Source: Cephaloticoccus sp.
Lineage (GTDB): Bacteria > Verrucomicrobiota > Verrucomicrobiia > Opitutales > Opitutaceae
Assembly (NCBI GenBank): GCA_030833445.1
Contig: JAURHD010000007.1
Span: 62,001 to 126,000 of the forward strand
DNA length: 64,000 nucleotides
Direction: 5' to 3'
Shown here: piece after piece, positions 59,729-62,098 of the stretch
Layout of the letters: each line of letters begins with the position of its first letter
Numbering within the stretch: the first letter of the stretch is position 1
Position numbers and translations under genes: made by a program
Notes under the pieces: generated by a model
Database searches by the model: none
What the model was told of the DNA's origin: nothing
Seen by the model: the letters and a program-made list of their open reading frames with translations, nothing else

Positions 59729-59986
59729 ATGACTTTACCTGCCAAAGAGCCCGAGACGTCTCGCGAATTCGTCAAACAATCCAGCTTGTATCAGGAATTT
59801 TTGGCCGAGCGGGATGAGATTTTGAAGCACAAGTGGCTCGAGTCCGAGCGGCTGGGCTACGATATTGGCTTTGAGCGCGCCCTCCTCGACTGGATCCGCA
59901 AACACCGCGAAGGTTGGCGTTCCGCGCGCCGTCTGCACCAACCGGAAAGTCAAGGTTCAGTGGTCCGGATGCCCAAGCAGCGCTGA
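59729..59986 (+). CDS. Small conserved hypothetical protein
   Basis: An 85-aa basic protein starting MTLPAKEPETSREFVKQSSL. It continues YQEFLAERDEILKHKWLESE and ERALLDWIRKHREGWRSARR, a helix-rich, Arg/Lys- and Trp-containing pattern that seems conserved in character, though I cannot name its family. It lies 68 nt after the Mrp gene, same strand, before the rpmG terminator. Possibly a nucleic-acid or ribosome-associated protein; that is a guess from its basic charge. Confidence 0.6.
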   Translation: MTLPAKEPETSREFVKQSSLYQEFLAERDEILKHKWLESERLGYDIGFERALLDWIRKHREGWRSARRLHQPESQGSVVRMPKQR

Positions 59987-60056: not shown

Positions 60057-60221
60057 TTATTTGATCTCTTTATGCAGCGTGTGCCGCTTGAGGAAGGGAT
60101 TATACTTCTTCTTCTCGATACGCTCAGTGACGGTTTTCTTGTTCCGCTTGGTGAGGTAACGGGAGACGGGCTTGCCCTCTTTACGGGCTTCGGTGCATTC
60201 GAGGATGACGTTTTCTTGCAT
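60057..60221 (-). CDS. rpmG: 50S ribosomal protein L33
   Basis: A 54-aa protein, [20 protein letters not shown], then [20 protein letters not shown] and [14 protein letters not shown]. This is the L33 pattern (ECT.., [19 protein letters not shown]). Only one Cys remains (ECT), so it is the zinc-free form. The frame reaches 60278, but the ATG at 60221 gives the normal length. A terminator follows. Confidence 0.95.
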
Positions 60222-60298: not shown

Positions 60299-61639
60299 TC
60301 AGTAGCGCTTATCGGTCAAGGGCAGCATGACCCCCCGGCGGAACAAGGTTACCTGCCCCGCGCTGGATGAAACCACGATCGCGATGCATTGGGCGATCAG
60401 GCTGATGGCCGCCGCCGCGGCATGGCGACTGCCCAAACCACTCGGCAAAGTGTGTTCGGTATCAACCGCTTGGATCAAACTGCCGGCCGATTCCACCACC
60501 CCATCTCCGCCGATCAAAAAAGCGCCATCGATGGATGAAAACTCCTTGATGGTCTCATCCATGAACGGATTGAGAATATTACGATCCTCTTCCTTGTAGC
60601 CGTAGAAGGGATTAAGGACGAGTGGCTTGGCGTATTTGGCCACTTTTTCGATGTCACCAACGACAAAGAGACAGCCCACTGGTTTACCCTCACGCCCTTC
60701 CACCGCCAGTTCGGTGGCCACGGCAATCAAACGTTCAAGCACCTCGGGCTTCACGTCATCGGGCAGCAGGTCCTGCTGTCCGGTCAACAAGGTCTGAAAC
60801 TCGCGCTCGATATCCACCACCGTCAGGGTATCGAACTGATTGCTGCCCGCCACGCCGCCTACACAGCAAATGCGGTCCTTGAAGGTAATTACCCCACGAG
60901 TCAGAGCCACGAGAATGGCACTGCGCAATTGGGCCATGCGTTGCGTCGAAAACGACCGCACCTGCAAAGTGACGTTGAATTCCTTCTGATCTTCACTGGA
61001 TTCAATCGGATTGCGGGTGACTAAAATGGTTTTGCTGCGGGAACGCAGTGCCCCCGATTGGATGCCGCCGACAAAAGTATCACCGAACACCATGATAGAG
61101 TCGCACCCCGAGCCCTTGGCGACGCGCTGGGCTTCCTGAAACATCAGCCGGTTGATTCGGTTCTGTTGGGCCTGCACCGGGCGGATGCTGCCAAATCCGC
61201 CGATCAGCCGTTCATACAGCGTATCGAGATCGGGTGCGCTCGTCAGGTTCTCCACCAGTTCGCGCTCCCTGACCTGCCGTGCAATCGAGGCCAGCACCTG
61301 CAGATAATCGCGCGCCTTCTCCCCGGCGATCAGCATGACGATCAAGTGCACGCGTTCGTCATCCTTGGCTCCCTCATGGCGCACCCCCGCCCGGCTGCGG
61401 CCAATCGCGAGCACATAGCGGCGGTTCATTTTCACGCGCACATGCGGCAAGGAAACGCCCAGGCCCAAATACGTGGTCATGGTGCTTTCCCGGGCCAGCA
61501 GGCCGCGCAAAAGCGACTCCGGTTTCAGGTCGCTGAATTTTGAAACACTAACCGCGAGCAATTCCTCCAACGCGCCACGCAAGGTGACACTGTGCAGATC
61601 AATGATCCGGCTGCGGGCGATGATCTTTTCTAGCCGCAT
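60299..61639 (-). CDS. PTS EIIA domain fused to a DacZ-like diadenylate cyclase
   Basis: A 446-aa three-part protein. Residues 1-145 are a PtsN-type EIIA domain with the phospho-acceptor His66 in [20 protein letters not shown]. Residues about 160-255 look like the pyruvate-kinase C-terminal-like domain found in archaeal DacZ. Residues about 300-446 form a DisA_N diadenylate cyclase: [23 protein letters not shown] (371-373) in [15 protein letters not shown], and [20 protein letters not shown] (401-420), the catalytic DGA and RHA motifs. So it should make c-di-AMP from two ATP, with EIIA as a likely phosphorylation-responsive input. The frame starts at an ATG at 61639. It lies between rpmG and nuoA. 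Confidence 0.85.
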
Positions 61640-61685: not shown

Positions 61686-62057
61686 TTATTTTTCCCACTC
61701 CAATGCACCCTTCTTGATTTCATAGAAGAGGCCGAGGACTAGCACCCCGACAAAGAAGAGCACCGGCCCGAGGATGGCGATGTGATTGGCGAGAAATTCG
61801 CGGTAGACGAAACTAAGCGGAATCAGGAAAACCACCTCGATGTCGAAAATGATGAAGAGCATCGCGGTGACATAAAACTTCACCGAAAAACGGGAGTGCA
61901 CGATCCCTTCCGCCGGGACGCCGCATTCATAGGCCGTATCCTTGATGCTGTTTTTCCGGGAGCGCTGCCCGAACAGGTGCGTGGCACCGATGACCAATCC
62001 GGCAATACCGGCGGCCAGCACAGCTTGGATCAAAAACGGAAGATACGTCGATGTCAT
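61686..62057 (-). CDS. nuoA: NADH-quinone oxidoreductase subunit A
   Basis: Membrane subunit of complex I. The 123-aa protein has three hydrophobic helices (about residues 6-28, 62-85, 93-115) and the family segments YECGVPAEGIVHSRFSVKFY and AMLFIIFDIEVVFLIPLSF. The start ATG at 62057 (MTSTYLPFLIQAVLAAGIAG) is preferred over a TTG at 62093. The rest of the nuo operon is not in the window. The EIIA-cyclase gene follows 47 nt downstream on the same strand. Confidence 0.94.
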   Translation of the reverse strand: MTSTYLPFLIQAVLAAGIAGLVIGATHLFGQRSRKNSIKDTAYECGVPAEGIVHSRFSVKFYVTAMLFIIFDIEVVFLIPLSFVYREFLANHIAILGPVLFFVGVLVLGLFYEIKKGALEWEK

Positions 62058-62098
62058 CACTTCTAAATTCACGGCGCACAGGGCGGCTGACAAGCGGT

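Follow-up and report, generated by a model that had tools for sequence, protein, structure and literature searches.

To our knowledge, the signals that control c-di-AMP synthases are poorly known outside the Firmicutes. Work on Haloferax DacZ describes this enzyme as essential and active in c-di-AMP synthesis in vitro, gives a PK_C fold for the N-terminal region of DacZ/CdaZ proteins and counts some bacterial members in the family (PMC6741144). The same work, citing Corrigan and Grundling (2013), names Lacunisphaera, Coraliomargarita, Puniceicoccaceae, Verrucomicrobia and Opitutae as representatives of the DacD class (PMC6741144). According to two other sources, PTSNtr controls K+, and in several Proteobacteria KdpD is bound by EIIANtr in its unphosphorylated form (PMC9239096, PMC13104625); TrkA, KdpD and YcgO appear in EIIANtr-related titles in the reference list of the second (PMC13104625). 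A literature search at the level of titles and abstracts found no functional study of an EIIA-DAC fusion and no paper joining the regulatory PTS and c-di-AMP through such a protein. Papers mentioning both c-di-AMP and EIIANtr were, by their titles, mostly about Rel/RelA or the stringent response.

We analysed a 64,000-nucleotide stretch of Cephaloticoccus sp. DNA (the window), in which one open reading frame encodes a three-domain protein with the following features.

60299-61639 (-): EIIA - DacZ_P (PK_C fold) - DAC fusion, 446 aa in one ORF (Pfam, NCBIfam)
61193..61639 (-): PTS EIIA domain of the EIIANtr/fructose/mannitol type, residues 1-149 (PF00359; model match to EIIANtr)
61442-61444 (-): codon of His66, the predicted phospho-acceptor, in an LPH motif
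60791..61162 (-): DacZ_P middle domain, residues 160-283, PK_C fold, putative ligand sensor (PF21755)
60329..60706 (-): DAC (DisA_N) catalytic domain, residues 312-437 (PF02457)
60521-60529 (-): DGA catalytic motif, residues 371-373
60419-60427 (-): RHA motif, residues 405-407, at the position of the usual RHR

An earlier note, made from the letters of the window, had read this frame as EIIA, a PK-C-like domain and DisA_N in that order, with His66, DGA at 371-373 and RHA at 405-407. The residues were found where it placed them, and three Pfam domains scored above their cut-offs: PTS_EIIA_2 (PF00359) at residues 37-145 with 62.4 bits against 27, DacZ_P (PF21755) at residues 160-283 with 98.9 bits against 27.4, and DAC (PF02457) at residues 312-437 with 68.2 bits against 27. 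The N-terminal domain belongs to the type 2 PTS EIIA group by its PF00359 match and by the His in its LPH motif, and the C-terminal domain is a DAC domain by its PF02457 match and the DGA motif. RHR is the usual DisA/CdaA motif; in the fusion its third residue is Ala407, which gives RHA. The EIIA - PK_C-like - diadenylate cyclase fusion is real. Chance or artefact was ruled out by the three domains above cut-off and by the presence of DacZ_P in 41 of the 43 sampled genomes of the same order.

The earlier note had also called the cyclase DacZ type, and this held for the family and failed for the equivalog. Haloarchaeal DacZ (NF041371) was the best NCBIfam family for the fusion, with 115.6 bits versus 23.3 bits for CdaA, but the equivalog cut-off of 430 bits was not reached. 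The scores also stayed below the equivalog cut-offs of PtsN (EIIANtr; TIGR01419, 45.3 bits versus 138.7) and CdaA (TIGR00159, 23.3 bits versus 188.8). A bacterial CdaA or DisA identity of the fusion was ruled out by the profile scores. A whole-protein model was built from a 64-row alignment, comprising the window protein and those from 63 named-record loci out of the 80 described below. It matched EIIANtr chains (2a0j, 3urr, 1a6j) as well as DisA/CdaA chains, in support of the two terminal domains; its mean pLDDT was 77.8 and its pTM 0.47, so the arrangement of the domains in it is unreliable. The middle domain, modelled alone from 38 rows (pLDDT 78.6, pTM 0.74), matched the C-terminal domain of pyruvate kinase with a Foldseek E of 4.5e-6 and aligned with pyruvate kinase 5wrp with a Z of 13.1 over 118 residues at 2.8 Å (VIA). 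The PK-C-like assignment of the earlier note was thus upheld, and by fold the protein has the N-terminal PK_C-like domain joined to DAC that defines the DacZ/CdaZ family. By sequence the PK_C match was weak: 9 of the 38 members had a hit with E no higher than 1 (best 0.0013), and the window protein scored 12.5 of 28 bits. The Pfam DacZ_A match was also weak, seen in 2 of these 38 with a best E of 0.026. DacZ_P had no match in 14 control genomes, at least three of them archaeal. Pfam has a DacZ_P family, so the middle domain is already known to curators. In a small tree of EIIA domains, support was too poor to place the origin of the fused EIIA.

To describe the distribution of the fusion, DacZ_P was surveyed in 288 genomes of the phylum, 43 of them of the same order. 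It was present in 46 genomes, 41 of which belonged to the order. Across the 41 order carriers the open frame of the fusion was 449-594 aa long, and no split was therefore seen among them. Among the matches listed, PTS_EIIA_2 lay at the fusion in 39 of the 41; the remaining two, G149 and G175, each had one further PTS_EIIA_2 match, and their EIIA lacked the acceptor His. A DAC panel of 57 genomes was then defined, with the 46 carriers, the two order genomes without the fusion and nine genomes chosen from other orders of the class. The fusion was the only DAC match in the source genome assembly, which is 97.75 % complete, and in 39 of the 41 order carriers, with a second DAC in G172 and G223. 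Neither of the two order genomes without the fusion had any DAC match. Each of the nine other-order genomes had a DAC, presumably CdaA, in an ORF of 249-330 aa with a higher PF02457 score, and one of them (G078) had a second DAC. Two DAC matches were found in each of the five carriers outside the class (G035, G114, G159, G245 and G247). The sole-DAC counts therefore indicate that the fusion mostly replaces CdaA in this order. Far from being peculiar to the source genome, it is the usual, and mostly the only, DAC of the order. A scan of genome contigs confirmed at least 505 relatives, the best 80 of which formed the named-record set. The titles of these best 80 named Opitutae, Opitutaceae, their genera and Verrucomicrobia/Verrucomicrobiota, with one 'bacterium'. 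The closest of them was a Cephaloticoccus MAG (L117, 90 %); Cephaloticoccus capnophilus CV41 (L101) was 82 % identical to the window protein.

Three genes near the fusion were noted, of which nuoA and rpmG lie on its strand.

61686..62093 (-): nuoA, NADH dehydrogenase subunit A, directly upstream with a gap of 46 bp (PF00507, 98.5 bits)
60057..60221 (-): rpmG, ribosomal protein L33, next gene downstream (PF00471, 59.3 bits)
L195:5266-7569 (-): Na_H_Exchanger protein with two TrkA_C domains, beyond the window end, ~5.6 kb from the fusion

The position of nuoA was testable in 74 of the 80 named-record loci, those covering the gene start plus 500 bp or more of preceding sequence; all of these were at least 58 % identical to the window protein. 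In all 74, taken from the best 80 of at least 505 relatives, nuoA was directly upstream on the same strand, with a gap of 9-141 bp. Among 20 wide loci, nuoA was upstream in 16/16 from the order and in 0/4 of the more distant ones. The two genes are likely in the same operon and would be co-transcribed. Some transporters bind c-di-AMP through TrkA_C (RCK_C), which makes the Na_H_Exchanger/TrkA_C protein a candidate c-di-AMP target. An equivalent protein lies ~6 kb from the fusion in G283, and G010, G018 and G099 have TrkA_C matches about as far away. By eye, the neighbours flanking the Na_H_Exchanger/TrkA_C gene resemble rpoD and mreB. An 85-aa ORF at 59729-59986 (+) had a sub-threshold match to the tail of DUF4032 (21.2 of 23.8 bits), and in L071 an ORF resembling it by eye follows the same gene. 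The window contained no tRNA by ARAGORN and no Rfam family at gathering score.

The surroundings of the distant fusion in G159 consist of pntB, a zinc-ribbon-EIIA gene, a radical SAM gene, an EI gene placed tail to tail and an amino-acid-permease-EIIA gene. This cluster (L066:7277-14719), with three EIIA-fused proteins (zinc ribbon, cyclase and amino acid permease) and EI, looks like a regulatory PTS island. Genes matching it (BLAST cluster) occur in G247, without EI.

The earlier note had suggested that a PTS phosphorelay acts on EIIA and links carbon or nitrogen state to c-di-AMP. Such an input is feasible, as EI, HPr and HPr kinase are all encoded in the source genome, which has one EI, HPrK, one stand-alone EIIA separate from the fusion, and two HPr. 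GIHARPA and GKSIMGL, which we take to be functional sites, are found in one of the two HPr proteins. All three relay genes were found in 41/41 order carriers; across the panel, EI was present in 57/57 genomes, HPr in 56/57 (all except G146) and HPrK in 56/57 (all except G114). The nine other-order genomes, which have no fusion, encode them too, so the relay genes are necessary but not specific. PTS_EIIC (PF02378, the sole EIIC family searched) was found in 6/41 order carriers; it had no match in the source genome or in the other 35. The nitrogen part of the suggestion fared less well: the only EI match of the source genome has no GAF domain in Pfam, which leaves nitrogen sensing through a GAF-type EI unsupported and makes PEP/pyruvate a likelier input than nitrogen. 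As a separate observation, the order genome G146, with no DAC match and no HPr match, encodes a Na_H_Exchanger - TrkA_N - EIIA fusion of 746 aa at L095:7224-9464 (-); other genomes of its family f2 have EIIA-bearing frames of similar size.

A candidate for removal of the signal, PF07697 (7TMR-HDED, putative PgpH type), was found in the source genome, in 34 of the 41 order carriers and in none of the nine other-order genomes; it was absent from the other seven carriers. The c-di-AMP riboswitch RF00379 scored above the gathering score in 6/57 panel genomes, namely G078 and five order genomes, all five of which have the fusion as their sole DAC. It precedes Kup in G099, an APC permease followed by kdpA in G283, related APC permeases in G274 (Pfam) and G143 (BLAST), and a Band_7 protein in G085; that is, potassium or APC-type transporters in four of the five order genomes. 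Two of these genomes, G274 and G283, had no PF07697 match. Neither the source genome nor its two genus-mates had the c-di-AMP riboswitch, laxer filters included.

With moderate confidence, we read the fusion as the sole c-di-AMP synthase, gated by the PTS through its EIIA with no detected EIIC, such that PEP/energy state would act on c-di-AMP and thereby on K+ control. As the cell's only c-di-AMP synthase, it would use its C-terminal DAC domain, judged by fold and motifs, to make c-di-AMP from two ATP. EI and HPr from the same genome would pass phosphate from PEP to His66 of the N-terminal EIIA, and HPr kinase, acting at the Ser site of HPr, could throttle this relay. Cyclase activity would depend both on whether EIIA is phosphorylated and on a ligand bound to the PK_C-like domain, so that the c-di-AMP level would track PEP/energy state. 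The output would be control of potassium uptake, a PgpH-type phosphodiesterase would remove the signal, and co-transcription with nuoA would couple the enzyme level to respiratory capacity. Catalysis, phosphorylation of His66, its effect on the cyclase rate and the ligand of the PK_C domain are steps that we infer. That unphosphorylated EIIA restrains the cyclase is a guess, little better than even.

Residue conservation was assessed in an alignment of 103 proteins, the window protein and one from each of 102 loci, with some genomes represented twice. Only frames with the DG, GxGxRH and EGREG motifs were kept, by which G114 was dropped. His66 was present in 99 of the 101 aligned proteins with a residue at that position (and in 64/64 in alignment A2), Arg50 in 99/100 and Arg68 in 99/101. 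Mean column identity in the 64-row alignment was 0.77 for EIIA and 0.75 for DacZ_P, so that these two domains are similarly conserved; for DAC it was 0.89. The exceptions at His66 were G149 and G175 of family f3 (L084 and L097), in which the fusion is retained and Ser replaces His66. Of all the results, this loss speaks most strongly against a universal phospho-switch. G102, a family-mate of these two in f3, had no DAC match at all.

If EIIA served as a docking domain, it would bind a transporter, HPr or a part of NADH dehydrogenase and position the cyclase, and its phosphorylation would be dispensable for control of catalysis. Such a role would explain why the domain stays in G149 and G175 despite the lost His66, and it agrees with the adjacency of nuoA in all testable loci. 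EIIANtr also acts through protein contacts in Proteobacteria, as described for KdpD (PMC9239096) and as suggested by the cited titles on TrkA, KdpD and YcgO (PMC13104625). However, His66, Arg50 and Arg68 are nearly invariant and the relay genes accompany the fusion in every order carrier, both of which argue against a docking domain, and we consider this explanation unlikely.

A further explanation joins EIIA and the cyclase in one chain without communication between them: EIIA would act elsewhere as an extra EIIANtr, and c-di-AMP would be set only by the PK_C-like domain or by co-expression with nuoA. The two parts do occur separately. The source genome has its stand-alone EIIA, EIIA in relatives is also fused to a CPA2 antiporter, an APC permease and a zinc-ribbon protein, and DacZ_P-DAC proteins without an EIIA match were found in G114 and as the second copy in G172, which indicates that the cyclase core can dispense with EIIA. 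Nevertheless, the order EIIA-PK_C-DAC is retained down to ~30 % identity and the long frame is intact in all 41 order carriers; we regard independence of the two parts as distinctly improbable. The second DacZ_P-DAC protein of G172 (L086:6750-9027, 296 aa) is EIIA-less, reads RHL and is encoded directly before a gene for a DUF2254 membrane protein, a pair resembling the dacZ-mscS2 pair of Haloferax.

Conservation in the DAC domain was high within an alignment preselected for DG and GxGxRH: D371 and G372 were found in 103/103 proteins and A373 in 98/103, R405 and H406 in 103/103 and A407 in 99/103, with RHT in three distant relatives and RHL in one. An inactive cyclase or one with a different product, suggested by Ala407 in place of the last residue of the usual RHR, is very improbable given the invariance of D, G, R and H in these proteins and given that five riboswitch genomes, three of which also encode a PgpH-type protein, have no DAC other than the fusion.

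The reading as a PTS-gated synthase may extend beyond the source genome. Tentatively, and at somewhat less than even odds in our judgement, most of the order would have its only c-di-AMP synthase under a mostly EIIC-less PTS, with PEP-driven EIIA, a glycolytic-type ligand and nuoA co-expression setting c-di-AMP and hence potassium and turgor. With the candidate regulator covalently attached, the relay proteins supplied by the source genome itself and no match to another DAC, the fusion lends itself to tests of a metabolic input to c-di-AMP. If true, the reading would connect c-di-AMP with the regulatory PTS, both of which are known to act in potassium control.

Among known systems, CdaA shares the DAC fold and the DGA motif with the fusion; unlike CdaA, the fusion falls far short of the CdaA equivalog, and CdaA-sized DACs were those of the nine other-order genomes. 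EIIANtr (PtsN) is similar in fold (2a0j, 3urr, 1a6j), in the LPH acceptor motif and in its link to potassium in the literature. In contrast to EIIANtr, the EIIA described here is fused to a cyclase, scores below the PtsN equivalog and has Tyr112 where the aligned 1a6j has His; and unlike in the nitrogen PTS, the EI of the source genome has no GAF domain in Pfam. The DacD class, which may have been defined by an EIIA domain, is represented in the very group in which the fusion is mostly the only DAC, and a Lacunisphaera MAG (L166) carries the fusion. Since the DacD representatives are Opitutae and other Verrucomicrobia, the DacD label very probably covers the fusion class, which, matched by taxa, has probably been tabulated already under that name. 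DacZ of Haloferax volcanii and CdaZ of Methanocaldococcus jannaschii have the same N-terminal PK_C-like domain and a DAC with DGA. The fusion differs from them by its extra N-terminal EIIA, by its score below the DacZ equivalog cut-off and by its linkage to nuoA, whereas H. volcanii dacZ lies in an operon with mscS2 (PMC6741144). By analogy with these enzymes, the fusion would work as a DAC of the DacZ/CdaZ fold family that is under regulation and has gained a PTS receiver.
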